From Candidatus Methylacidithermus pantelleriae (GTDB lineage: Bacteria > Verrucomicrobiota > Verrucomicrobiia > Methylacidiphilales > Methylacidiphilaceae): DNA of 64,000 nt. Numbering within the stretch: the first letter of the stretch is position 1; each line of letters begins with the position of its first letter. Of the stretch, positions 4,499-57,269 are shown piece by piece. The notes below the pieces were generated by a model that saw only the letters and a program-made list of their open reading frames with translations, was not told the DNA's origin and did no database searches. The stretch covers positions 1-64,000 of the forward strand of contig NZ_CAJNOB010000070.1 of the NCBI RefSeq assembly GCF_905250085.1, written 5' to 3'. A program made the translations under genes and the position numbers.

Positions 4499-5677
4499 AT
4501 GTGGGATCGAAAGGGTTTGCTTCTTGCACTCGCCGGGCTGTTGGGGGTTGGAACTGTTTTTTTTCTTTTGCCTTTAATTCCCCTCAAAGATTTCTGCCGC
4601 CGGATCGTGACGGAAGCCTTTGTTACGTACCACCACATGGAGGTTTTGGGCAAAGGAAGTGTTTCGGCTAAAAAAACGGAGCCCCAACGCCCCACCAAAC
4701 CCGCTAAGATCGAGAAGGTTTTGATCGAAAAGGGCAAAGAGACTCCCCTCTCGGGCGTGATCCCTCAAACCATGGCCCCCGAAGCTCCTCCTCCTAAACC
4801 TCCCGCTCCTCCGGTAGCTATTACTTCCCCCTCTTTTGGCAAAAAAATCGCACTTAACCCTGGGGATACTCCTTCGCCCGATCGCGAAGCCCCCGTTCCC
4901 AGAGGCCTTATGACTCAAACCCCTCTGGCGGAAGGGGGATCCTCTTCTCCCCAACACGTTGTGACGCGTTGGAAAGCCAAGCGATATCTCTTTCGAAACC
5001 TTTCGGATACCGCTTTAACAGGCACAACAGGAACGGAAGAAAAAGGCGATTTTTCATCGATTAACCCTCAAACCTTTGCGCCCAGGGGTGAAATGATCGA
5101 AGCGGCCCTGGTTAACTGTGCTTTTTCCTCCAATACTGAGATTGATGTTGTTGGTGCGGTCTGGCTTCCCTTTTATTTCCAGGGACATCTTCTTTTGGAA
5201 CCCGGTTGCCGCCTGTTGGGAACCGCAAGCCGAGGCAAGCTGCGCGACCGAATGAGGGTCCGATTCGATCATATTATTTTAAAGGATGGCCGGTCCTTAC
5301 CCATCGATGGTGTGGCCCTTCATACTGACGGAACCGAGGGTATTAAGGGGTATGTGATCAGTGAATGGGCCAAGCGTATCATTGCTCCGATGACCGCAGA
5401 GCTTGGACAGTCGTTTTTATACGCCCTTCAATACCAGAGCTATACGTATACGATGACCCCTCTCGGGCCCTACGGGGTCCCGAAGGATCAATCAATGACA
5501 GGGGCTTATCAATACGCTGGAACCTACGGTGGCATATCTGCGCTGCAAAAGATACAAGAGCTTTTGGTTGAAGATTTGGAAGAATATCGTCCATATGTGT
5601 TTGTACCGGCTGGAACGCGATTTCGTGTCTATCTGAGAAAGTATGTAGATGTTTCGCAAGCCGATTATGGAAAATAA
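4499..5677 (+). CDS. VirB10/TraB-like T4S channel protein
   Basis: A short cytoplasmic N-terminus and one transmembrane helix (residues about 7-28) are followed by a long Pro/Lys-rich periplasmic linker (about residues 55-165) and a C-terminal beta-barrel domain. The barrel domain has family hallmarks: LVNCAFSSNTEIDVVGAVW, then LLLEPGCRLLGTASRGKLRD and the strand VRFDHIILKDGRSLPIDGVA. A helical segment near residue 300 (ISEWAKRIIAPMTAELGQSF) is followed by a Tyr/Gly-rich stretch that may form the antenna. The protein ends near VFVPAGTRFRVYL, the usual last strand of VirB10. It bridges inner and outer membranes. It lies 13 bases after the VirB9-like gene and 18 bases before the lipoprotein gene. 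This is the clearest core-complex assignment in the cluster. Confidence 0.85.
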   Translation: MWDRKGLLLALAGLLGVGTVFFLLPLIPLKDFCRRIVTEAFVTYHHMEVLGKGSVSAKKTEPQRPTKPAKIEKVLIEKGKETPLSGVIPQTMAPEAPPPKPPAPPVAITSPSFGKKIALNPGDTPSPDREAPVPRGLMTQTPLAEGGSSSPQHVVTRWKAKRYLFRNLSDTALTGTTGTEEKGDFSSINPQTFAPRGEMIEAALVNCAFSSNTEIDVVGAVWLPFYFQGHLLLEPGCRLLGTASRGKLRDRMRVRFDHIILKDGRSLPIDGVALHTDGTEGIKGYVISEWAKRIIAPMTAELGQSFLYALQYQSYTYTMTPLGPYGVPKDQSMTGAYQYAGTYGGISALQKIQELLVEDLEEYRPYVFVPAGTRFRVYLRKYVDVSQADYGK

Positions 5678-6647: not shown

Positions 6648-8014
6648 CGTTCCTAAAACCATAGCCAACCATTGGCCTATCTGGGAAGATCATCCGGGAC
6701 GCTGGCCGAACAGCGCTGCTGAGGATTCGCGTGGCGAGGTTTCAGAGGCAAAGCTCGGGTAGCGGCCCATTCCCGCGTTCTCTGCGGCAGAGGCCCGGGA
6801 GGAAGCCATTGGCCTTCAACCGGAGATGCGCTGCATGCACCGCTTTGAGCCTATTCCCAAGCGCCGGCCAGATGGAGCATAGATGCTTCGTCCGATTGCT
6901 TGCGGGCAGGGCGAAGGTGACATGACCTGCGTCGCAGGTGGGCGCTACCGCCTCCCACACCCACGGCCGTTTAGACAGACCCAATCCTCTCGGAGCGAGA
7001 GCACGAGGCCGCCCCCCTGGCAAGAGCGGGTGCCACGACGACGCGCGTGATTGATCGCACCGATCACAGACGTGTCGGCCGGGTCGACTTCGATCACCTC
7101 GACTTCGGCACGAACAAAAGCCGACTTGAGCCATCACGATCGCCTTACCAATAGGCGAAGGAAGAGAGCAAGCAAGCTCGAACGGAACTTACCGACTCCA
7201 ACTCGAGTTATCGCTTGCGAAGGTTCCATCGTTCGATCACCAGCGGCTTACCCGATTCAGCACGGGCCCGGGTGATCTCTTTGCACGCACCAGTAAAAAT
7301 CTCTTTGGCCTGCTTCTCCCTTTTGCCAAGAAGATTCAGTCCGATCCGGCGGCGGATTCTTGCGAGATTGCCCAGGCGGCCGATTTTGCCCAAGGCGCGA
7401 TGATCCTCGTTCGTGTCGATGCCGACACCTCCAGCAAGGCGGTGTGCCCCCAGAAAAGGAGTCCGCACCTCGACGCTTGGCAACCACCCGCTACCACTTT
7501 TCTATCCCGCACGAAGCGGTAGCTTAAGCGCCAATCCCTCCGCCTCCGGACCGGTGTATCGGTCTTGGGTTGTCGTGGTCACCATCCGGCTTGCGGAGAG
7601 CGCCTGAGGGATTACTTGCTCGCCGTAGGCGAGGCGGACGCGCTCGAGAACCAGGTATTGGCTTGGGCTCTCCCATCCGTCCGATGCAGGCTTCTTTTCT
7701 CGGGCTCGCGGAAAAGCTTTTCCGCGCTCCGGATCCCGCTCCTTAGCCTGATCAATGAGCTCGGGCCGCGGCTCGCCGATCGAAGCGATTTTTCCTTCAC
7801 GCTCGGACCCGGAGGGCATGGAACTCTGGGACGGCCAAGCCGAACCGCGGCAGGAAGAATCGCGTAATTTTCTTCAGCGAAACACGAGCCCGCATCTTGC
7901 AGAAAAACCCACTGCGCTCGCCCGTAGAGCGCCGCATAGGTCTTAAGCAGCTCCCCCTGCTCGGCCGTCACCCGCAAACCGCGTCGGGTAAGCGAAAACA
8001 CGGAGCTTCCTCAT
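6648..8014 (-). pseudogene. tnpB: IS607 TnpB, broken (copy 1)
   Basis: TnpB proteins of IS607/IS605 elements are RNA-guided nucleases with a RuvC fold. Pieces are readable in different frames: an N-terminal stretch near 7.9 kb (RVTAEQGELLKTYAALYGRA), then the RuvC segments GVGIDTNEDH (first Asp) and LVIERWNLRKR (Glu) near 7.2-7.45 kb, and a C-terminal stretch to about 6.65 kb. At least two frameshifts separate them. Similar text in copies 2 and 3 confirms homology. Confidence 0.75.
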
Positions 8015-8577
8015 GCGATCGCTTCGAGCGCCTTCTTGGCGCGGTTTCGAGCAAATCTCTTCCGGTAAAGCCTAGCACACAAGGACACAAGGGTCTCATA
8101 CAGATGGCACACCATATCGTCGATCATCCCATTCGGACCCACCACCAGGATAGATCGGCCCTGCGCGGTCCATGCCGCTTCCCGGTACTCGAAACCGATA
8201 GGGATCACTCGGTCGCGCTGCTCGACCAGGATGACGCCAACCTGTGGATCACACACCTGCCCAACAAGCCCCCTGCGATGGCCGTTCATCCCCGAGCCGA
8301 CCTTCTTGACGGCCTTGACGATCCCCAACTCTTTGTTTGAGGGCCAACTCGGAAAACCCAAGCCACCTGTCTGTCTCAATCGGCTTTTGGATCGGCGCTC
8401 GCACACACGCGCATAAAGGGCCACGCTACCGGGTGGTGCCGCCTCCGCCTCCGTGTGCACGATTACTGTCCCGGGCGACAACTATTCTGCGGGAAGAGGC
8501 AAACGCCTCTGCTTCCCCATCCGCCAAGTCGTCTTGTAGCCAACACCCTGCCGCTGGGCCCGTCCAGCTAACTTGAT
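8011..8577 (-). pseudogene. tnpA: IS607 TnpA serine recombinase, broken (copy 1)
   Basis: The reading frame starts where the sister copy has ATGAAG, but here the codon is ATC, so the start is lost. An in-frame TAG follows the MerR-like DNA-binding region (near PLPAE). The recombinase part is then open: ALYARVC, GSGMNGHRRGL and ILVEQRDR match the resolvase core. The nucleophile Ser of the YARVS motif is Cys (TGT) in this copy. The C-terminus KKALEAIA and TGA stop overlap the ATG of tnpB. This enzyme would cut and join the IS607 ends. It is not functional as it stands. Confidence 0.8.
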
Positions 8578-20411: not shown

Positions 20412-20423
20412 TGGTTTTTGTTT

Positions 20424-23189
20424 ATGGAAGGCAAAGTAACACAGTTTCCCAAACTCTTTGGAAATCTCCGCCGACTGTTTCTAAAAAACCAAAGTTTTAC
20501 CGCGAAGGGCGCGCCCGTGTACGTTGATTGGGCGGATGCTTGCCCGTACTGCGGCGTGTACGACCGCTATGTGGTCGACAAATTTGGGGCCGTTCATGCG
20601 ATGTATCGTACGTTTTTCCCCCAGTCCGACATCGCCACCGTCGAGCGCTTAATCGATCTTCAAAACCAGTTGCGTCTCATCTTATTGCAACTTCCGCCCG
20701 ATATTGTTCAAACCCAGCATCTCTTTACGTGCAACGGGGATTACGGACCTCTTTTAAGCGAGTTTGCCAAAATCCCAACGCACCCGCGCCTGGCGGGGTT
20801 GCGACGCCGAAAGGTTCACCGTCTTTGGAACCGGATGCTACAGCGAGGCCTTGTTCGCATCGAAACTCACTCGGTTGTCTCGGCCCTCCCTGCTGTAAGC
20901 CAAAGGAAAAGCGAGTGGCAAGAACGGGTGCACGGAGGAAGCACCGCAGCCATCGAAAGACGAAGGATCACAAGGGATGAGTTTGACGCAGCCGCGGCAA
21001 CTCTTTCGGCCGCAGAACAGGTTTTGATGGATGTTTTTCGGCGTGCGGGAGCCCGTTTATTACCCATGGGGCCTGAGGAATTGGCTGATTACTTCTTTCG
21101 GCTATGGAATCCGGGTCTAGCCGTCGAAGGAGGAATGCGTGTCCAGTACGATTATCACCGGATGCCGTTTGTAGATGCCTGGATGGTTCAAGAGGTCAAT
21201 CTCACTCGGGACGTTCTTCAGATTGGGGATTACTATCATTCCGTAGTCTCTTTGGTTGGGCTTCCTCTAGAGACACGTCCTCGAGATATCGAACGTCTCA
21301 CAGTCAACCTGCCATTCCGGGACGTCCGTGTCACCCTGACCGTTCGTAGAACCGATAAGCTCCAGCGGATGGAACGACTTCGCCATCGGATCGATGCTGC
21401 GGACCAACGGATGAAGCTGGGGTTAAACGCGATTGAAATGTTTTATAAACCTCATGACGACCGAAGAGAATCGGGGGTTCATAATATCGAAGCTTGGATG
21501 CAGATCGAAGAAGCGCAATCTTTGTTGCGCGATCTCCGGTCGGGTGAAGATGAATTGGTAGAAATCCAACTGACGGTCCATCTTTGGCACAAGGATCCAG
21601 AAGAAGTCCGGCGTCGTCAGAAGCTATTGCTCAACCGTTTTGGAGATCTTGCGCGCGCTCGTGGTTGGGTAGAACGAACCGGGCTCCTTCCGGTTCTCCT
21701 TTCCGATATGCCCTGCGTCTATGCGCCCCTGACACGCCCCTTCTTCGTGCGCTGCCGCATGGCGGCAGACCTCATGCCCATCTGCCGAGGTCTTGAAAGC
21801 GAGGAACGTCCTGTTTTCCTTTTTGGGAACACCACTGGAGGACTTGTGGGTTTGGATCTCGAAGACAAGCGCAACGAAGGTGCATCGATGCTTTATATTA
21901 GCGGTGTCAAGGGTTCGGGAAAAAGTGCGCTTGCCCAGCTCATCCTGCTTCGCGCCATAACACCAGAATCGGTTGTCATCATCATTGATAAAGGAACCAG
22001 TTACGATCGACTCGTTCAATGGCTCGGAGGGGCGACGGTTCGCTTGGATTCCAAACATCCTATTTGTTTTAACCCTTTCGAAGTCTACGTTCAGCGCAAG
22101 GAAGTAGAATCCCTCGTGGAACCCACTGCCTCAGAACTGTCACGGGTGGTCCAATGTTTGGAGATTTTAGCCGTTGGAAAAAACGACCAACCTTTGACCA
22201 CAGCTGAACGCAATATTATCGAGACGGTTGCTCGGCAAACCTTTTCGAACGCAGTGAAAGCTCGAGCCAAACTGGTTACTTTGGACGATTTCTGTAAACA
22301 GCTGAGCTATCGGACGGACGGTTCTTCTCTTCTTGAGAGATTGAAGCCTTTCGTCGACGGAAGGTACCGACAGTGGTTTAATGGTGCAACGCAACTTCAC
22401 CTAAAAAGTAAAATCGTACATTTTGATTTCGAGCATGTTTCGCGAGACGAGGGACTAGCCCGCGTTCTCATTCCGATAGCGACGCTCTTTGTGTCCGATT
22501 TGATTTATACATATCCCAATGTTTTTAAAATTCTTGTGTTTGGCGAGATGTGGCAGCACGTAAATAACGAATACACCGCTAATCTCATTATTGATGCTTT
22601 TAAAACCTATCGGAAGAAGCGTTGCGCAGTTATCGGGGAATCCCAGGCGATTTTGGATTTGGCGGACAATCCGAAAGTAGCAAAAGCGGTTATCCAAAAT
22701 GTCGATACCTGGCTCATGCTGCCTCAGGGAAGCGAAGCACATGTGGAGTTTGCTGTACGTGAGCTCGAGCTTACCGAAGGCCAAAGAGATTGTCTTCTTA
22801 ATCTCAAGCAAAGATCGAGAGTTCATCCCCATGGAGCCGTTGAGATGTGGCGTGAGGCTTTCTACTTGCGGGGAAGGGGGATGGATAGGCTCTCCGGGAT
22901 TGTTCGGGTCGAAATGGAACCGGAAGAGTACTGGATTACTACAACGACCCCACAGGATCAACCGGTGTGGCAAGCTGCCTTAGACGCGTTCGGTGGGCAC
23001 ATGGGCAAGGCGGTGGAATTTCTGGCCCGTCGATATCCCACAGGGGTGTTGGCGGAGCATGATGTTTCGATGCTCCAGCGGGAGGTCAACGGGGTTCAAG
23101 AATCCGCTCCAAAGCCTTCCTTACCATCTGAGAGCACTCCAGAGCTAAGATCAAGTCTTTTTGCTGAAGGGAAGGAGGCCCGTTGGTGA
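20424..23189 (+). CDS. virB4: VirB4/TraC-family T4S ATPase
   Basis: A 921-residue VirB4/TrbE/TraC ATPase that energises pilus assembly and substrate transfer at the inner membrane. The N-terminal 480 residues are the divergent family domain; Walker A is GVKGSGKSA (about residue 495). The C-terminal domain holds the Walker B region ILVFGEMWQ at residues 703-711. The usual Asp-Glu pair is Gly707-Glu708 here, a one-base difference (GGC versus GAC). Later motifs include RKKRCAVIGESQ (about residue 733), with Gly-Glu-Ser-Gln where family members usually have Thr-Gln. ATG at 20424 is preferred over TTG at 20418. The TGA stop overlaps the GTG start of the next gene. The length is slightly above the common 800-870. 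Confidence 0.9.
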   Translation: MEGKVTQFPKLFGNLRRLFLKNQSFTAKGAPVYVDWADACPYCGVYDRYVVDKFGAVHAMYRTFFPQSDIATVERLIDLQNQLRLILLQLPPDIVQTQHLFTCNGDYGPLLSEFAKIPTHPRLAGLRRRKVHRLWNRMLQRGLVRIETHSVVSALPAVSQRKSEWQERVHGGSTAAIERRRITRDEFDAAAATLSAAEQVLMDVFRRAGARLLPMGPEELADYFFRLWNPGLAVEGGMRVQYDYHRMPFVDAWMVQEVNLTRDVLQIGDYYHSVVSLVGLPLETRPRDIERLTVNLPFRDVRVTLTVRRTDKLQRMERLRHRIDAADQRMKLGLNAIEMFYKPHDDRRESGVHNIEAWMQIEEAQSLLRDLRSGEDELVEIQLTVHLWHKDPEEVRRRQKLLLNRFGDLARARGWVERTGLLPVLLSDMPCVYAPLTRPFFVRCRMAADLMPICRGLESEERPVFLFGNTTGGLVGLDLEDKRNEGASMLYISGVKGSGKSALAQLILLRAITPESVVIIIDKGTSYDRLVQWLGGATVRLDSKHPICFNPFEVYVQRKEVESLVEPTASELSRVVQCLEILAVGKNDQPLTTAERNIIETVARQTFSNAVKARAKLVTLDDFCKQLSYRTDGSSLLERLKPFVDGRYRQWFNGATQLHLKSKIVHFDFEHVSRDEGLARVLIPIATLFVSDLIYTYPNVFKILVFGEMWQHVNNEYTANLIIDAFKTYRKKRCAVIGESQAILDLADNPKVAKAVIQNVDTWLMLPQGSEAHVEFAVRELELTEGQRDCLLNLKQRSRVHPHGAVEMWREAFYLRGRGMDRLSGIVRVEMEPEEYWITTTTPQDQPVWQAALDAFGGHMGKAVEFLARRYPTGVLAEHDVSMLQREVNGVQESAPKPSLPSESTPELRSSLFAEGKEARW

Positions 23190-28313: not shown

Positions 28314-29079
28314 GGCATTTGTCGGTTTTGAAGCCTTGGCGCATATAGTTTTTCGCCACGCTCGTAGGAACCAGCAGTGACGAGCCAAAACCGAAAGATC
28401 GCGGCTTTTGACAGCTCGACTCGGAGAAAATTTCCGGCACTATGCCGCCACGAAAACATTTGGGAGGTAATTTTCCAAATTAGGGGACCTGGAATGACTC
28501 AACGAGAAAAGCGTTTTTTTTCTTCGCCCATAGCCTAAGCATCGCAATAGAAACTTTTTCGCCTCGGGTCTTGGTTTTATCCTCGAAGGGAACCAATCAT
28601 CGCCTCGCGCAGCCCCATAAGCACAAAAGTTAGTGAGACCACAGGGTAGCTTTGGACTTGAGCAAAGACCGAAGGGGAGGGGGGCCGGCTCTTTGGTTCG
28701 AACGAAACGCGACAAGGAGAGAGAGCGGGCAGACTGCCGATAAGTCGAGAACCAGGTCTTGCGCCTTCCGAAATGCGATAAGCTGGCGCTCCCTACGAAA
28801 AATGGTCAGCACGCGAAATATACGGGGTGGGAGTCGAGCCCAGTTGTAGTCGTTTATTACGCAATTTCGATTGGAACAAGGACAAGCTAAGTAAAAAGGG
28901 AATTCGGGCAGTAACAAAGTGTACGGCTTCCCGCTAAGGGGTTCTCGGTCGGCTCATTTTCGGTGATTGCGTCGTAAGTCATTGAGACGCAAGACCTTCA
29001 ATGGGCCATTGGAACTCCATGTTCTGCTTTTTTACGATCTTGGGGTTGACCACGGCTTTCGGCCAAGGATCCGGACGGT
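28314..29079. other. About 770 bases without a recognisable gene
   Basis: No supported frame. The stretch lies between the end of the T4S block and a dead transposase fragment, so it may hold the element boundary, but I could not find matching direct repeats. Confidence 0.35.
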
Positions 29080-29630
29080 GGAAAGGATTTAGTAGTGGGT
29101 CTGGGAGTTGCCGGCGGTAACTTGCCCAGCGTGTTTCGTTGTCGCATGATAGCTGGACGGTGTGGAGCGTCCGGAGGGCAGCCTAGACTTGTTTTGGGAA
29201 AAAAGGAAGCTTCGCCGCTTAAAGTTTCTTCCGTAGGCGGGTCTCCAGTAGGAGGGCTCAAGCGACCCAAAGAGACGTGCGCTAGGGACTCGTTGCGGAT
29301 CGTGATGGGAGATAGGGCAGAGTTTTTCGCCCATCTTTAGAGCTTGCGGAAAGCTCTTTCCACCTCGGAGAGTCTCTTGCCGGCTCAGAGGACTTTTCTC
29401 GGGGAGAAGCCCCTTTTTTGCTTGCGTTAGAATCAGATACTTCCCCTCCAGCAATTTTTTCCGTCGCCTGGGCTCTTCCGAGACTCGGAGCCTGCCTTTG
29501 CTCTAGGCTCAAACGAAAGAAAGTACCGATGGCCACGATGCGACGAAAAAATCTGGCTGACCGAACGGCCGATCTTTCCCGATCCTCTAGCTCTCGTTCT
29601 CCTTGTTCCATGCGCTGGACTCGGCCTGTC
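29080..29630 (-). pseudogene. IS1634-family transposase, C-terminal relic
   Basis: Base-level similarity to the IS1634 transposase at 50.4-51.0 kb is visible: GGAAAGCTCTTTCCACCTCG near 29346 against GGAAGGCTCTTTCCACCTCG near 50727. LEGKYLILT is readable in the protein frame at about 29450, followed by frameshifts. Only the last third of the gene remains, ending right beside fabH. It is inactive. Confidence 0.75.
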
Positions 29631-43226: not shown

Positions 43227-45869
43227 TCACCCGCCGGAGGACTCCTCCAGCACCGCCTGGGCTGCCGCCAGGCGTGCGACAGGCACCCGGTAGGGCGAGC
43301 AGGAGACGTAGTCGAGTCCTGTCCGGTGGCAGAACTTCACGCTCGCCGGCTCCCCGCCATGCTCGCCGCAGATCCCGACCACGAGCTCCGGCCGGCTCAA
43401 GCGGCCCCGCTCGGTCCCCATCCGGACGAGCTGCCCCACGCCCTCGCGGTCCAGCATCTGGAAGGGATCTTCCTGGAGGATCCTCTGGTCGAGGTAGCGC
43501 GGGAGGAACCGGACGGCGTCGTCGCGGCTCATCCCGAAGGTGAACTGGGTGAGGTCGTTCGTCCCGAAGCTGAAGAACTCGGCGACCTCGGCGATCCGGT
43601 CCGCCACGAGGGCCGCGCGGGGGACTTCCACCATCGTGCCGATCCGGTAGTGGATCCGCTGCCCCGTACGCGCCTGGACCTCCTCCGCCACCTGACGGAC
43701 GATCTCCGCCTGCTGGCGCAGCTCGTTCAGGCCGCTGACGAGCGGGATCATCACCTCGGGCTCCACTCTGACTCCCTCCGCCTGGCAGGCCGCCGCCGCC
43801 TCGAAGATGGCGCGCGCCTGCATCTCCGTGATCTCCGGGTAGAGGATCCCGAGCCGGCAGCCCCGCAGCCCCATCATGGGGTTCGCCTCGCGCAGCGCCG
43901 CCACCTTGCCCCGCAGGACCTCCACCGACACTCCGATCCGCTGCGCGGTCTCCCGCAGTGCGTCCTCATCAGGGGGTAGGAACTCATGGAGGGGCGGGTC
44001 CAGGGTCCGGATCACGACGGGGAACCCGTCCATGATCCGGAACAGCTCGACGAAGTCCTGCCGCTGGAGCGGCTCGATCCTGGCGAGGGCGGCCCGCCGC
44101 TCCTCCGGTGTTGTGGCGACGATCATCTCCCGCATCGCGTAGATCCGGTCGCCCGTGAAGAACATGTGTTCGGTGCGGCACAGCCCGATCCCCTCTGCAC
44201 CGAACGCCCGGGCCCTCTGGGCGTCCTGCGGGGTGTCGGCGTTCGCCCGCACCCCCATCCGCCGGAATTCGTCGGCCCAACCCATGAACGTCGCGAACTC
44301 CCCCGCGAGCTCGGGGTCGCGGGTCGGGAGCACACCCAGGTACACCTCGCCCGTGCTACCGTCCACCGTGATCCACTCACCGGCCCGGACCCGTACCCCT
44401 CCCGCCGACATCTCCTGTGCTGTGGGATCCACAGTGATCGCCTCCGCGCCCACCACGCACGGCTTCCCCATCCCCCGGGCCACGACAGCCGCGTGGGAGG
44501 TCATCCCACCCCGGGAGGTGAGGATCGCTCGTGCGGCGACCATCCCGTGGAAGTCCTCCGGAGCCGTCTCCGGGCGGACGAGGATCACCCTCTCGCCCTG
44601 GGCGCTGAGTCGCTCCGCTTCGTCCGGGTCGAACACCACGCGGCCGCTCGCAGCCCCTGGAGAGGCCGGAAGTCCCCGGGCGAGGAGTCGTCCTTCCTCG
44701 CGGGCCCGCGCGCGGTGCGCCTCGTCCAGCGTGGGGTGGAGGAGTTGGGCCACCAGTTCCGGCTCGACCCGCATCACCGCCGCCCGCCGGTCGATGAGTC
44801 CTTCCTGGACCATGTCCACCGCGATCCGGATCGCGCCCGCGCCCGTGCGCTTGCCGGATCGCGTCTGGAGCACCCACAGGCGTCCCCGCTCGATCGTAAA
44901 CTCGATATCCTGCATGTCCCGGTAGTGCCGCTCCAGTCGCTCGGCGATCCGGACGAGCTCGGCGTACGCCTCCGGCATCTCCTCCTGCAGGTGCTCCAGC
45001 GGTTTGGGCGTCCGGATGCCCGCCACGACGTCCTCCCCCTGGGCCTGGGTCAGGTACTCCCCGTAGAGCCGCTTCTCCCCGGTGGCGGGGTTTCGGGTGA
45101 AGGCCACGCCGGTGGCGGAGTCCGGGCCGAGGTTCCCGAAGACCATCGCCTGCACCGTGACCGCCGTGCCGAGGGTGTCGGGGATCCGGTGGATGCGGCG
45201 GTAGTCCACCGCTCGCTTGCCCATCCAGGAGTCGAACACGGCGGTGATGGCCTGCCGGAGTTGCTCGTAGGGATCCTGAGGAAACGGTTGGGCGGCGCGC
45301 GCTCGGATGATCGCCTTGAACCGCTCGCAGATCTCCTGGAGCTCTTCGGCCTCGAGGTCCGTGTCCTGCCGCAGCACCGGACCCCGGCGCTTGTACGCCT
45401 CCAGGACTTCCTCGAACGCCTCCCCCGGTACTTTCATCACGATCCGCCCGAACATCTGCAACAGCCGGCGGTAGGCGTCGTAGGCGAAGCGAGGGTCCAG
45501 GGAGTGGGCGATCCCTGCGGCCACGTGATCGTTCAGGCCCAGGTTCAGGACGGTGTCCATCATCCCGGGCATGGAGACCGCAGCCCCCGAACGCACCGAG
45601 AGGAGGAGCGGGCGGTTGGGATCCCCAAAGCGCTTCCCCAAGCGCCCCTCGATCCCCCGCACTGCCTCCAGGACCTGTTCCCAAAGACCCTCCGGGAGGT
45701 GCCGTCCAGCGGCGTAGTAGGCGTTGCACGCGTCCGTGGTGATCACGAACCCGGGCGGGGTCGGGATCCCGATCTGGGTCAGCTCCGCGATCCCAGCCCC
45801 CTTGCTCCCCAACAGGTGGAGGAGCTCCGCCGCGCCCTCCTCAAACCGGTAGAGCCACCTCCTGCCCAT
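43227..45869 (-). CDS. ppdK: Pyruvate, phosphate dikinase
   Basis: PPDK interconverts pyruvate, ATP and phosphate with PEP, AMP and pyrophosphate. The N-terminal ATP-grasp domain starts near GSKGAGIAELTQIGIPTPPG (about residue 21). The phosphohistidine domain carries TSRGGMTSHAAVVARGMGKP with the carrier His459, and the C-terminal PEP-binding barrel has GLRGCRLGI (about 665) and CGEHGGEPASVKFCHRTGLD (about 830) with the catalytic Cys. 880 residues is normal. AGGGGGG precedes the ATG. Third codon positions are almost all G or C, unlike all flanking genes, which points to recent transfer from a high-GC donor, possibly a thermophile or actinobacterium-like lineage (inference). Confidence 0.97.
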   Translation of the reverse strand: MGRRWLYRFEEGAAELLHLLGSKGAGIAELTQIGIPTPPGFVITTDACNAYYAAGRHLPEGLWEQVLEAVRGIEGRLGKRFGDPNRPLLLSVRSGAAVSMPGMMDTVLNLGLNDHVAAGIAHSLDPRFAYDAYRRLLQMFGRIVMKVPGEAFEEVLEAYKRRGPVLRQDTDLEAEELQEICERFKAIIRARAAQPFPQDPYEQLRQAITAVFDSWMGKRAVDYRRIHRIPDTLGTAVTVQAMVFGNLGPDSATGVAFTRNPATGEKRLYGEYLTQAQGEDVVAGIRTPKPLEHLQEEMPEAYAELVRIAERLERHYRDMQDIEFTIERGRLWVLQTRSGKRTGAGAIRIAVDMVQEGLIDRRAAVMRVEPELVAQLLHPTLDEAHRARAREEGRLLARGLPASPGAASGRVVFDPDEAERLSAQGERVILVRPETAPEDFHGMVAARAILTSRGGMTSHAAVVARGMGKPCVVGAEAITVDPTAQEMSAGGVRVRAGEWITVDGSTGEVYLGVLPTRDPELAGEFATFMGWADEFRRMGVRANADTPQDAQRARAFGAEGIGLCRTEHMFFTGDRIYAMREMIVATTPEERRAALARIEPLQRQDFVELFRIMDGFPVVIRTLDPPLHEFLPPDEDALRETAQRIGVSVEVLRGKVAALREANPMMGLRGCRLGILYPEITEMQARAIFEAAAACQAEGVRVEPEVMIPLVSGLNELRQQAEIVRQVAEEVQARTGQRIHYRIGTMVEVPRAALVADRIAEVAEFFSFGTNDLTQFTFGMSRDDAVRFLPRYLDQRILQEDPFQMLDREGVGQLVRMGTERGRLSRPELVVGICGEHGGEPASVKFCHRTGLDYVSCSPYRVPVARLAAAQAVLEESSGG

Positions 45870-46072: not shown

Positions 46073-47092
46073 TCAACTAATCCGTGTCCCTACAATGGCT
46101 GGAGAGTGCCAGCCAATCGCAAGCGTTTCCACGGAAAGAAATCCTTCTTCCTTAAGCCAGTCACTATACTCCTCGAGAGCAAATGTATCCCCGTAACGTG
46201 TGTTGAGGAGCATCTGAAGAGCAAAGAAAACGGCAAAAGGGGGACCGCTCCGATCTTCTTTGGGAACCATGTCAAGAATGACGACCTTTCCATTGGGGAC
46301 CAAGGCTCGGTACAGTCTTCCCAAAAGTTCGCGGGTCGACTTTTCCCCCTCAGAATGAACCAGGTTCCCCAGAATGGCCATATCGTACGATGCTTCACCT
46401 AACTCGACGGTTTTCACGTCGCCAGTCAAATAGGACACCCTTCGGCAATTGTTTCCAAGAGTTTTTTCTACAAAAACTCGGGTATGTTCGAGCACTTGCG
46501 GAAAATCCTGTAGCGTGGCTTTGGTACACGGGTCAACAAGAAGAATGGCCAGACTCCACACCCCAGACCCAGCTCCTAGATCCAGCACATGTTGAGCAAC
46601 GCTACCGGAGGGTTGTCGCAAAGCCTCAGCCAGGCGTCGTGCTGGCTCCCGATGGAGAATGTGAAGGCTTCGAATAAGTCTAGGGAAAAATTCTTGAGCC
46701 TTCTCCTCCTCATCTACAGCCATCACAGGTTCCCCTGTCCGGATGACCTCTGTCAGGGATGTCCAGTTCTCCCAAAGATCGTTCTTTTCCACCATGTAAC
46801 CGACGTAGTCAGGGCTTTCTTTCACAAGATACTGCTTGGTTTCCGGAAAAAGCTCGTACTTCTTCCCTCTCTTTTTCAGAAGCGCCATAGTCACAAGAGC
46901 ATCTAAAAGCATGCGAGTCCCTCGCGGAGTTGCTTCGATCCGGCCAGCTACTTCGGTGGCAGTCGCTCCTTCAGACGAGATCGCAGAAAAAACATCAAGC
47001 TCGATTGCCGCAGCGAGCGTCCGCGCTGGTGCCAGCGAAAAGACCGTTTGAATAAATACTTCTGAAAATGATTTTTGCTCTTCCTTTGGCAT
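46073..47092 (-). CDS. SAM-dependent O-methyltransferase (plant-OMT/CrtF type)
   Basis: The N-terminal winged-helix dimerisation domain (about residues 10-95: TRLAAAIELDVF-like start, then TATEVAGRIEATPRGTRMLL) and the C-terminal Rossmann domain define the Methyltransf_2 family. The SAM motif is VLDLGAGSGVWSLAI (about residues 170-184); an acidic stretch follows near TLQDFPQVLEHTR. ATG 47092 is preferred over the longer frame because GGAG lies 8 bases before it. 339 residues is typical. Relatives methylate hydroxyl groups of carotenoids, bacteriochlorophyll intermediates or quinone-like compounds; the substrate cannot be told. It stands alone between the GC-rich ppdK and a group II intron relic. 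Confidence 0.85.
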   Translation of the reverse strand: MPKEEQKSFSEVFIQTVFSLAPARTLAAAIELDVFSAISSEGATATEVAGRIEATPRGTRMLLDALVTMALLKKRGKKYELFPETKQYLVKESPDYVGYMVEKNDLWENWTSLTEVIRTGEPVMAVDEEEKAQEFFPRLIRSLHILHREPARRLAEALRQPSGSVAQHVLDLGAGSGVWSLAILLVDPCTKATLQDFPQVLEHTRVFVEKTLGNNCRRVSYLTGDVKTVELGEASYDMAILGNLVHSEGEKSTRELLGRLYRALVPNGKVVILDMVPKEDRSGPPFAVFFALQMLLNTRYGDTFALEEYSDWLKEEGFLSVETLAIGWHSPAIVGTRIS

Positions 47093-50338: not shown

Positions 50339-50353
50339 CCGGCCCATGTTTGG
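50339..50353 (+). repeat. Left terminal inverted repeat of the IS1634 element
   Basis: CCGGCCCATGTTTGG, the exact reverse complement of the right end at 52243-52257; the next bases diverge. Confidence 0.75.
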
Positions 50354-50437
50354 GGGAGGGTCTCGTAAGTCGTTGCGATACAACACCCGTCATTCCCCAT
50401 TGGCACTACAGGGCCTATTTTTGCCCTTTCCGGTCGG

Positions 50438-52105
50438 CTACGCCTCCCGGCCAGAGATGTGCAAAGCGGAGAGGATTTGCCGGGCCTGATGGTTTCCGGC
50501 GGTGACCCCGCGACGTTTTTCCCTCCCGAAGGCGAACTCCACCCGATGGATGGTTCGGAGGGCAACCCAAGCTTGCTCGCTGCAGAAGGGGAGATTGGCC
50601 GCCTTGAGTTTCTTCTCCAGCAGCCGGTCAAGCAGGAAGGCCAATGCGGCGACGAAGACGTGTGCCCGCACCCGGTTGGGATTGTGGTGGTAGATCGGCC
50701 GAAGCTCCAGGACGTCCTTGAGCTTCCGGAAGGCTCTTTCCACCTCGGAGAGCTCCTTATAGGCCCGGACCGCCTCAAGCGGGGAAAGATCTCTTTCCTC
50801 GGTGAGGATCACGTACTTGCCCTCCAGAAGCTTTTCGGTCTCCACCGGCTCTTCGGATACTTGGAGTTTGCCCGCCCGCAGACTCCAGCGGAAGTAGCGG
50901 TGGCCGCGAGAAAGAGAGAGGATTCGGGCGACGGAGCTGCCGATCTCTTCCGGGTTCCGAAGCTCTCCTTTTTCGATCCGCTGGGCAAGCTTCCCCAGCT
51001 CTTCCCGGGTCTTGGCGACATCACTCTCCCGCATGGCCTGCTCGTAGGCTAATCGCTCGGCACTCTCGACCACGAAGATCCGCTGCCCGGGAAGCACTCC
51101 CTCGACTTCGCAGATCCGATCCTTCCCCGGAGAGCAGGGCTGTCAAGAACCGCTCTGGGCCTTGCGGATATACTCCAAGACCTCCGGACTCCTTCGTCGG
51201 CGTAAGCCGACCAAAAATCCCTGCCCCTGGCTCCAGAGGAAGCCCAAGGTGGCCGTGCTCACCATCCCCCGGTCCCCAACGAAGATGATCCGACGCAACC
51301 CGAAGCGTTTCTGCAAGTCGGCAACGATCGGCCGCACCGTTTCCACATCGTGCCGATTGCCCCGGAAGACATGGTGGGCAATCGGCCAGCCATTGACCAT
51401 GACGACCCCCAAGAGGATCTGCCGGTTTCCCTCCCGCTGGTCTCGGGCTTGGCCGTATCGGGCTAAGCCCTCCGGACCTTCCCCGTCGAAATAGCAGGAA
51501 CTTACATCATAGAAGACCCTCTCGGGCTTGAGGCAAAAGAGATCCCGCAACCGGGCAAAGAGCCCTTCCTCGATCCTCTCCTTGCGCTCGATGAGCTCGT
51601 CAAGAGTCCAGTACCAAGGCCAAAGGAAGCGGTGGTCGACCCGGACTCGGCCGTTCTGCTTCCAGACCGGCCGGATCCTCTCTCCGTTCCCATCCGGAAC
51701 GTAGTCGGCCTCCAGTCACTGGGCCAAGGCGTGCTCGCTTCCTGGGCAAAGGAGCCGGTTGGCCACAAGGACCAAAGCCCGTTCCGCAAGAGAAAGCCCT
51801 TTGCCCTTTCCCCTCTTCTCTGCCAAAAGCTCTCCCAGGCCCAGCTCCTCCCAGAGATGCTTGGCGACAAGCATTGGACCCCACACCGCGGATTCCTGAG
51901 GCTCAAGGGCTCTCGCAGAAACCGGCGCGGGCCGCCCGAGCAGTTCCGCGAGCCGATCCAGGTGGGGCGCTAAGAGGTCCTTGCGACCAAGAGTCGCGAC
52001 AATCCGCTGCTTGACCTTTCCCTTTTCCCGGTAGCTTTCCACCAACCGGACATACTCCGCCTCGCTCCCGTCCTTCCGACGCAACCGCAGGGTGCGCAGA
52101 AACAT
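50438..52105 (-). pseudogene. IS1634-family DDE transposase with two in-frame TGA codons
   Basis: A single frame of 556 codons runs from ATG 52105 to 50438. It is interrupted only by TGA at 51716-51718 (within ALAQ-TGA-LEADYVPD, where Trp would fit) and TGA at 51143-51145 (within QSGS-TGA-QPCSPGK). DDE landmarks are present: FYDVSSCYFDGEGP (about residue 200) with the first Asp, FVGDRGMVSTA (about 280) with the second, and SEVERAFRKLKDVLELRPIY (about 445) with the Glu. There are no frameshifts. Either the gene is very recently dead or TGA is read through. Confidence 0.85.
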
Positions 52106-52242
52106 GACGTAGCATTACTGTACTCCATCGTTCCTAGCAAAAGTACATGCGCATGCGACAAAGTTATTCACAGTGTCGCACTACATTTTTATCAACTTTC
52201 ATTCCCCACCCCTGGAGCCGTAACCAAAAAGGCCAATTTTCA

Positions 52243-52257
52243 CCAAACATGGGCCGG
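52243..52257 (-). repeat. Right terminal inverted repeat of the IS1634 element
   Basis: CCAAACATGGGCCGG, the exact reverse complement of the left end; lies about 140 bases upstream of the transposase start. Confidence 0.75.
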
Positions 52258-52941: not shown

Positions 52942-53015
52942 GCACCCGTAGCTCAATTGGATAGAGCGTCGGCCTCCGGAGCCGAAGGCTCCGAGTTCAA
53001 GTCTCGGCGGGTGCA
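52942..53015 (+). tRNA. tRNA-Arg (anticodon CCG)
   Basis: Full cloverleaf: acceptor GCACCCG/CGGGTGC, D arm GCTC-loop-GAGC, anticodon stem TCGGC/GCCGA with loop CTCCGGA (anticodon CCG), T arm CCGAG-TTCAAGT-CTCGG, discriminator A. The CCA end is not encoded. It reads CGG codons. tRNA genes are common integration sites, and mobile relics lie on its left. Confidence 0.95.
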
Positions 53016-53568
53016 CGGAAGGTGCAGGCAGATTGGGCGAGCAGTCTTTCAGCCTTGCGTTGGAGCACCCTCCCAAGCTGATTGATAGGCGGCTAGAGAC
53101 GGGGGTCCTAGTTTGTTGCTTGAAGTTGGGTTCTTTCCAGCGGAAACGCCTCGCCCAGATGGCCCGCTTGAGGCCGACACTGCATTAACCGCAAAAAAGA
53201 AAAGTTACGAACTCGTGGAACCGTGGGAAAAGGGAGAGCAAAGGCGAACTCGGTTTCGGCTGCTCCCAAGGAGGACATTAGCAACTGCGGACATCCTGCC
53301 CATGGTTATGATGTTGGGGATACGAAAGCTTTTTGCAACGGCGAGAGTTTTTTGCTTTAGCTGAAAGACAACCTTGGTTATCCATCCGCAGTGTCGAGCG
53401 ATACGAGGTTCACATTCAACGAATTTCTTTCTCCGTCCCATTACTTCACTTTGTTAAAGGGACACCCCAAGAATCATTGCTGGTTTTACTGGCTGGTCCG
53501 AGAACCAAACGAGATATTTTCCGTATCGAGCTTTCTTGGTTTTTGGTAGCCTTTGAGTCCGGTTGGCC
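53016..53568. other. About 550 bases without a convincing gene
   Basis: A plus-strand frame from about 53333 overlaps the start of the gmhB-gmhA fusion gene; its first 75 codons look somewhat protein-like but have no recognised domain, so it is not called. Confidence 0.35.
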
Positions 53569-55620: not shown

Positions 55621-55682
55621 TCATCTATCACATCGTTTGGGGAAAAAAGATACTGGCTTTGTCGGGTTCCCACGGATCGTTC

Positions 55683-57269
55683 TGGTTCCTAACCGTTCCC
55701 CAAACCACTGAGAACCAACCTCTACCTGGGAAGCTCGTTCGGCACGCCGGCCGAACAGCGCTGCCGCCGATTCGCCTGCCGCCATTCCGCTGGCAGACCC
55801 CCAGGTAGCGCCCAGTCCCGCTTTTTCGAGGACAGAGACGCAGCAGGCTACCCAGCGCCTCCCGTCCCGAGCTACGCTGCTTTGAGTCTCCGCCGAACTC
55901 CCTCCATAGAAACGACCATCCATCCTTCGTCCGATTGCTTGCGAGTAAGGCGAAAGGGGCCACCACTGCCATTGCGCGTAGGCACGACTGCCCCTTGCAC
56001 CGACGGGCGTTGGGAGAGACCCATCCCTCTCCGAGCGAGGGCACGAGGCCGCCCGATGGTGAAAACCCATCCCATGACGACGCGCCTGGTTGACCGCGCC
56101 GATCGTAGACGTGTAGGCCGGATCGACTTCGATCACCTCGACTCCGACAGCAAGATGCCGACTTGAGCATCGCGATCGCCTTGGCGTAGGCAAAGAAAGA
56201 GAGCCAACCCCAACGGGATCCGCTGACTCGAGCTTGAGTTCTCGCTTACGAAGATTTAATCGTTCAATCAGAAGTAACTCGCCGGATTCGGCGCAGGCCC
56301 TGACGATCTCCTTGCACCCATCAGTAAAAATCGCTTTCGCCCGCTCCCCCCTCTTACCATGGAGATTCCATCCGATCCGACGAAGATCCACCAGATTGCA
56401 GAAGCGGTCTGTTTCCGCCAAGGCGAGATAATCCTCGTTCGTGTCGATGCTAACCCCTCTGGCGGGGAGGCGTGTCACCAGGAAAATGGGTTGCGCTTCG
56501 GCGCTCGCAAGCATCCGCCACCCCCTTCTCGGTCCCACACCAAGCGGTAGCTTACTGCTCATTCCCCGCTTCCGGACGAGTTTCCCACTCTGGTGGTTGG
56601 GGCGGCCGTCACCATCCGGATAGCGCAGAGCACCGGGAGGATTCGTCTCCTGGGCCGTAGGCGAAAGCAGACGCCCTCAAGAATCCACCGTTGGCTCGGG
56701 CTCCTCCCTCCATCCGGCAGCCCAAACCGCAGCCAATAGCTTCTCGTCAGGGGGCACCGTGGCTTGGTAGGACTGATTGCCCACGGTTTCTTCCTTCAAC
56801 CCGAGCACATACAGCTGGCTCCCGGCCCGGCCTGCCAATTCCTCTTCCAGTCCGCATGGTTAGCGTGTCGGTTTTCTTCCAAGGAAAACTCTTTACGGGA
56901 AGAGGCAGCGCGAACCGAAACACAGACGCACCGGCTTGCGACTTCAGATGGGGCCAGGAACGCGTCGAGCTTCGTCCGCAGGATGGCCAGCCGCCGTTTT
57001 TTTCTGGCGCAGGCGGTTTGATCCCGGCTTCTTCTCCCCGAGCTCTTCGAGCTCGGGCCCGGAGGAGATGGAACCCTCGGGCGGACCAGCCAAACGGCTG
57101 CAGGAAGGATCGATTACCCTCGCGGAGCAAAACACCAACCAGACCGTATCTGGCAGAAAGAAGTCTGGCTCCCCCCGCCAGTAGAGCGTCGCATAGGTGT
57201 CAAACAATGCCCCTGTTCGGGCGTCACCCGCAACCGCGTCTGGTAAGGGAAAACAGAGAGCTTGCTCAT
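55683..57269 (-). pseudogene. tnpB: IS607 TnpB, broken (copy 2)
   Basis: The longest readable part (56562 to about 56000) holds the RuvC segments VSIDTNEDYLALAETDRF and LLLIERLNLRKRELKLES and the stretch VEVIEVDPAYTSTIGAVNQA, all typical of IS607-type TnpB. N- and C-terminal parts are in other frames. The RNA-guided nuclease is dead in this copy. Confidence 0.8.

Follow-up and report, generated by a model that had tools for sequence, protein, structure and literature searches.

A very probable recent inactivation of an IS1634-family insertion sequence carrying two TGA codons at tryptophan positions in Candidatus Methylacidithermus pantelleriae

Results

The element, its ends and its target duplication

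The stretch of DNA analysed here (64,000 nucleotides, hereafter the window) carries an insertion sequence of the IS1634 family whose transposase reads on the minus strand and is interrupted by two in-frame TGA codons (Table 1). The initial annotation had described the ends of the element as intact. A perfect 15-bp inverted repeat (50339-50353/52243-52257) does exist, but its outer four bases proved to be a palindromic target duplication. Among relatives of the element the outer 4-mers vary by locus (CCGG, TCGG, CCGC, GCGG, CTAG, TTAA, TTAG and ATAG), and because the relatives have different 4-mers at this place we read the outer CCGG as a 4-bp target duplication. Since CCGG on both sides is its own complement, it lengthened the apparent repeat to 15 bp. 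With CCGG assigned to the duplication and not to the repeat, the element therefore has the limits and the length of 1,911 bp given in Table 1. Comparison with copies elsewhere places CCCATGTTTGG at the start and the end of the element proper. Both ends could be located in 14 relatives, and in 11 of these the two flanking 4-mers are identical; they differ in L041, L045 and L048.

Table 1. Features of the insertion sequence and its interrupted transposase in the window.
Feature	Positions	Strand	Basis or remark
IS1634-family insertion sequence, 1,911 bp	50343..52253	-	Ends set by comparison with G002, G012 and G001 copies
Target-site duplication CCGG, 4 bp, transposase-start side	52254..52257	.	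Comparison of outer 4-mers across relatives
Target-site duplication CCGG, 4 bp, transposase-end side	50339..50342	.	Same comparison of outer 4-mers
Left terminal inverted repeat, 11 bp, core CCCATGTTTGG	52243..52253	-	End comparison with relatives
Right terminal inverted repeat, 11 bp, CCAAACATGGG on the minus strand	50343..50353	-	End comparison with relatives
Transposase pseudogene, 555 codons and stop, two internal TGA	50438..52105	-	No frameshift; D200, D278 and E456 kept
TGA at codon 130	51716..51718	-	TGG in 15/15 aligned close copies covering the codon
TGA at codon 321	51143..51145	-	TGG in 16/16 aligned close copies covering the codon
In-frame 3-nt loss between codons 327 and 328	51124..51125	-	Codon present in the 16 aligned close copies

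The length of the element falls inside the 1,500-2,000 bp of the family, and the element start, CCCATGTT (from 52253 downwards), fits the family end consensus C-----YT listed in Table 1 of PMC2266710. The 4-bp duplication found here, and in the 11 relatives mentioned above, differs from the 5-6 bp that are usual for the family. According to the available text of PMC2266710, IS1634 and IS1549 have long and variable target duplications of 8-514 bp; the length of the duplication was therefore treated as variable, and 4 bp as no exclusion from the family. Long target duplications of the kind made by IS1634 itself were considered and rejected for the present element, which has 4 bp only. The same text gives the absence of the IS4 YREK motif as a mark of the IS1634 family.

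The transposase frame and its two TGA codons

The transposase had been annotated as one frame broken by TGA codons at 51716 and 51143, and we find exactly two internal stops in it, both TGA. When TGA is read as tryptophan, the frame matches NF033559, the NCBIfam profile of the IS1634 transposase (E = 1.1e-95; 321.5 bits against a cut-off of 100), from residue 31 to residue 551, and it also matches Pfam DDE_Tnp_1. The three invariant acidic residues are what we take to be the DDE triad. The composition of the frame is 62% GC and 75% GC3, whereas all but one of the 25 tabulated window ORFs lie at 48-56% GC.

Relatives of the element

Transposase matches were found in at least 12 of the 60 genomes searched, the element's own genome included. 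Among the matches listed, the closest copies belong to two other Methylacidiphilaceae genomes. Copies in these genomes (G002 and G012) have about 90% protein identity to the window copy and the same ends, and near-full-length relatives there are 89-90% identical at the DNA level; copies in a third genome, G001, stand at 71-72% identity. The G012 locus corresponds to Methylacidiphilaceae MAG STC_89, and one locus of a further genome, G003, to Methylacidiphilum sp. Yel. Unlike the interrupted transposase of the window, the frames of the G002 and G012 copies are open through both sites, where they have TGG, and have an additional codon following position 327. In G012, the copy also lacks a matching 4-bp duplication.

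The close alignment consisted of the window and 16 copies, ten from G002, one from G012 and five from G001. The initial annotation had placed the first TGA where tryptophan is expected, and codon 130 is indeed TGG in every aligned close copy that covers it. Codon 321 is likewise TGG throughout, and therefore the second TGA also occupies a tryptophan site, not the first alone. TGG is present at both sites in close copies of all three genomes.

Four partial or decayed rows (L047, L054, L055 and L056) were left out of the 16-copy alignment. L047 has tryptophan at codon 130 within its close segment, L056 covers codon 321 only and has proline there, and L054 covers neither codon. L055, which lies in the element's own genome (C71:63000-66300, 67% nucleotide identity), belongs to the subgroup as an older, decayed and frameshifted copy; its codon 129 is TAG, its codon 130 is TGA, and at codon 321 it has arginine. 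More distant homologues have W, V, E, Q or I at codon 130, and at codon 321 they have W, R, N, P, A, gaps or, in the decayed homologue L011, TAG. In these alignments, then, both tryptophans are conserved within the subgroup, and more distant homologues keep them often, though not in every case. All three types of stop occur at tryptophan columns of decayed relatives: TAG at 162, 321 and 407, TAA at 148 and TGA at 130.

Glutamine synthetase is 73-74% identical between the same genomes, compared with about 90% nucleotide identity for the element. The element is closer to its G002 and G012 relatives than glutamine synthetase is, which suggests transfer between lineages, and it probably arrived by transfer between lineages of Methylacidiphilaceae.

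A DNA search of the element's own genome returned five further places, all 66-67% identical, and no second full-length close copy; the two longest of the five are broken. The end sequence occurs in this genome at one exact site and at one site with two mismatches, no more than in a backward control. Mobile derivatives that use the ends of the element were rejected as a candidate, since the count of end sequences was not above that control.

Changes on the branch to the window copy

Changes were polarized with G001 as the outgroup, at codons limited to those where the G002 consensus equals G012 and G001 polarizes the change. The branch to the window copy has 59 changes (30 synonymous and 29 nonsynonymous), and the sister branch has 27 synonymous and 12 nonsynonymous changes. 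The nonsynonymous share is raised on the window branch relative to its sister, a suggestive difference that is not significant alone (Fisher P = 0.09). A nonsynonymous change at codon 219, where two bases changed, was flagged as a stop by the base-at-a-time walk; the window has no stop at that codon. The commonest change on the window branch is G to A (14/59). Of the 11 ancestral tryptophan codons of the transposase, nine have stayed TGG, and codon 166 has newly become TGG.

A neutral model in which the G012 frame stands in for the ancestor, and in which the 59 window-branch changes supply the spectrum, expects 2.5 nonsynonymous changes per synonymous change, with stops making up 2.6% of changes. 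The window branch taken as a whole is clearly not neutral (P = 0.0003). The data fit roughly a model with constraint over most of the branch and about its last quarter free. With the last quarter free, 0.7 stops would be expected, and the probability of two or more is 0.15. Under the neutral model, the probability that both stops arise as TGG to TGA is about 0.02-0.03, and that both fall on tryptophan codons with any type of stop is 0.09-0.13. The two TGG-to-TGA changes are thus a mildly unusual coincidence, and one noticed after the fact.

Decoding of TGA in the genome

A gene for release factor 2 is present, with a prfB match of 490.5 bits (cut-off 370) and no internal stop; a second release-factor match, below its cut-off, is presumably RF1. 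All 46 Rfam tRNA matches were typed by ARAGORN and none has a UCA anticodon, a count to which tRNAs missed by the Rfam model are invisible. The sole tRNA-Trp found among the 46 has the anticodon CCA. A UGA suppressor tRNA was rejected, as no UCA anticodon occurs among the typed matches, and selenocysteine was rejected because the lone tRNA-Sec match over the cut-off is tRNA-Leu(UAA).

We sampled 464 kb, made up of the window and 20 other stretches; TGA is the terminal stop of 38 of the 160 long coding frames in this sample. Five of the 25 hand-picked ORFs of the window, whose gene labels were assigned by eye, end in TGA, and there are 236 TGG codons inside them.

The sample was also scanned for interrupted frames, defined as a single stop flanked on each side by coding-like sequence; the threshold was set so that both TGA codons of the element were recovered. 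Most candidates from such a scan are probably not interrupted genes, and the scan tests for an excess only. It returned 68 candidates (30 TAG, 21 TGA and 17 TAA), and the share of TGA among them shows no excess over terminal usage (P = 0.32). Stricter thresholds gave TGA in 13/39 and 6/14 of the interrupting stops, and one further threshold, which missed both TGA codons of the element, gave two candidates, one TAA and one TGA.

In the window alone, TGA accounts for 9 of the 12 interrupting stops; across the 20 other stretches it accounts for 12 of 56 (P = 0.0007). With the present element removed the figure for the window is 7/10 (P = 0.004). The share of TGA among all stop triplets is alike in the window (43%) and in the other stretches (42%). 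One of the window candidates, the TGA at 46075, closes a methyltransferase and looks like a natural gene end. Another, at 8013, is probably the natural end of an IS607-like fragment; the IS607 profile ends nine residues before this TGA, and reading through it gives no longer match. The remaining TGA candidates of the window have no individual explanation, and the excess in the window is unexplained. Since the other stretches have no TGA excess, that of the window is not evidence for genome-wide reading of TGA.

Discussion

How is a transposase that retains its presumed catalytic residues and has two TGA codons at tryptophan sites to be understood? We consider it very likely that it belongs to a recently inactivated IS1634-family insertion sequence that has no close partner copy in its genome. 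The stops lie where close relatives have tryptophan, the element has both ends and its target duplication and is the lone close copy, and the genome has RF2 and ordinary tRNAs. The initial annotation had weighed very recent inactivation against TGA read-through and against origin from a genome that reads TGA as tryptophan. The first of these has the best support, in view of the open copies at about 90% identity, the lost codon and the raised nonsynonymous share.

An IS1634-family element of a subgroup common to Methylacidiphilaceae would have entered the genome, and its insertion would have made the 4-bp target duplication. Two nonsense mutations on tryptophan codons, both TGG to TGA, would later have inactivated it. 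Translation would stop after 129 residues, so that no complete DDE transposase would be made and the element would be unable to move itself. A close intact copy that could mobilize it in trans was not found in the genome. We infer that the element arrived horizontally, that the events followed this order and that termination at both TGA codons is efficient. Counted against inactivation are the lack of any frameshift in 555 codons, the value of about 2-3% for TGG changing to TGA twice, the lack of significance of the nonsynonymous excess taken alone, the clear departure of the whole branch from neutrality, and the TGA excess of the window.

One alternative is that one or both TGA codons are sequencing or assembly errors and that the element is intact. 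The genome is a draft in 71 contigs, which would leave room for such errors, but it is unlikely that the same kind of substitution error would occur twice. The copy has lost a codon as well, its nonsynonymous share is raised, and the genome has no other close copy whose reads might have been mistaken for those of this one. We regard errors as a very improbable explanation.

Marginally less probable still is low-rate read-through of UGA by the host tRNA-Trp, which would yield some full-length transposase, such that transposition is throttled and not abolished. The lone tRNA-Trp detected would have to read UGA often enough for nonsense mutations at tryptophan codons to be nearly tolerated, and the transposase would be leaky; we find this premise just as hard to credit. 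Both TGA codons are at tryptophan sites, and each is followed by C. In E. coli, C after UGA is a leaky context. However, the C is already present after the codon in the G002 and G012 copies, which have TGG. The excess of TGA among the interrupting stops of the window would agree with read-through, but it is not genome-wide, and at least two of the nine TGA candidates look like natural gene ends. Moreover, very little product would result if translation had to pass two leaky stops one after the other, and in the decayed copy of the same genome the TGA at codon 130 is accompanied by frameshifts and a TAG at codon 129. The presence of RF2, the lack of a UCA anticodon among the 46 tRNAs, the use of TGA to end genes and the lack of an excess over 464 kb all speak against read-through of TGA.

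The tRNA-Trp itself offers some leads in the direction of read-through. In the only gene found for it (L078:1501-1573; C5:46709-46781 in the element's own genome), the D-loop lacks one base relative to all 11 relatives with a match, out of 12 searched, and the 27-43 pair, as read by eye, is G-U. An E. coli tRNA-Trp with an altered 27-43 pair has more UGA read-through, according to the available text of PMC13092985. On the same reading, however, the G-U pair is common to 10 of the 11 relatives, among which G002 and G001 have retained TGG in their copies of the element, and the short D-loop could be a sequence error. These leads did not alter the weighing of the explanations. A literature search on the D arm of tRNA-Trp in UGA suppression found nothing. 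In single-strand folding the tRNA-Trp of this genome gave no cloverleaf and that of G002 gave one; nothing was concluded from this. If UGA read-through were true, the bacterium would be one that tolerates UGA at tryptophan codons without a new anticodon, and such tolerance would connect to the work on near-cognate tRNA-Trp of which PMC13092985, in its available text, is an example.

In Mycoplasma mycoides, TGA is a tryptophan codon. This species has many copies of the family in the available text of PMC2266710, yet descent of the element from a genome with that code is contradicted by the evidence and is the least credible explanation of all, since the nearest listed copies are in related Methylacidiphilaceae genomes and have TGG at both sites, all but two of the ancestral tryptophan codons have stayed TGG, a further TGG has arisen, and the frame is GC-rich, above all at third positions. 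IS1634 of Mycoplasma mycoides is the namesake of the family and has no link to the TGA codons of the present copy.

Under the preferred reading, recent inactivation, the element is an ordinary feature, of little importance as it stands, and represents an early stage in the decay of an insertion sequence. The inactivating changes can still be identified because close open copies exist.

Broken copies have fared differently in G002. Six of the nine aligned G002 copies that cover codon 179 (L040, L041, L042, L044, L045 and L046) have one complex lesion in common, which includes an in-frame TAG at this codon and, in five of them, one extra base. The six occupy different sites, and four have matching 4-bp duplications of their own. 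This suggests that broken G002 copies are apparently movable in trans while an open copy is present. A comparable helper, in the form of a close intact copy, was looked for in the genome of the window and was not found.

Other features of the window include further mobile DNA. The region 573-28348 is a conjugation-like looking block with a VirB4/TraC-like ATPase (20418-23189) and a weak VirB10 match (4499-5677), both matches below their curated cut-offs. The IS607-family transposase fragment mentioned above (8011-8481) scores 83 of 110 bits, below the cut-off, and a weak TnpB-like match at 55621-56700, read with TGA as tryptophan, has 20.5 bits against a cut-off of 100 in a stretch that is apparently decayed. 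Pfam gave no match for seven of nine neighbouring ORFs, and NCBIfam none for six of nine. An 880-aa ORF at 43227-45869, by eye a pyruvate phosphate dikinase, has a GC content of 70%. The remaining 24 tabulated ORFs lie at 48-56%, and this one was therefore perhaps recently acquired. A remnant of another IS1634 transposase lies at 29056-29505, and a gene for tRNA-Arg(CCG) is found at 52942-53016, about 690 bp from the end of the element.
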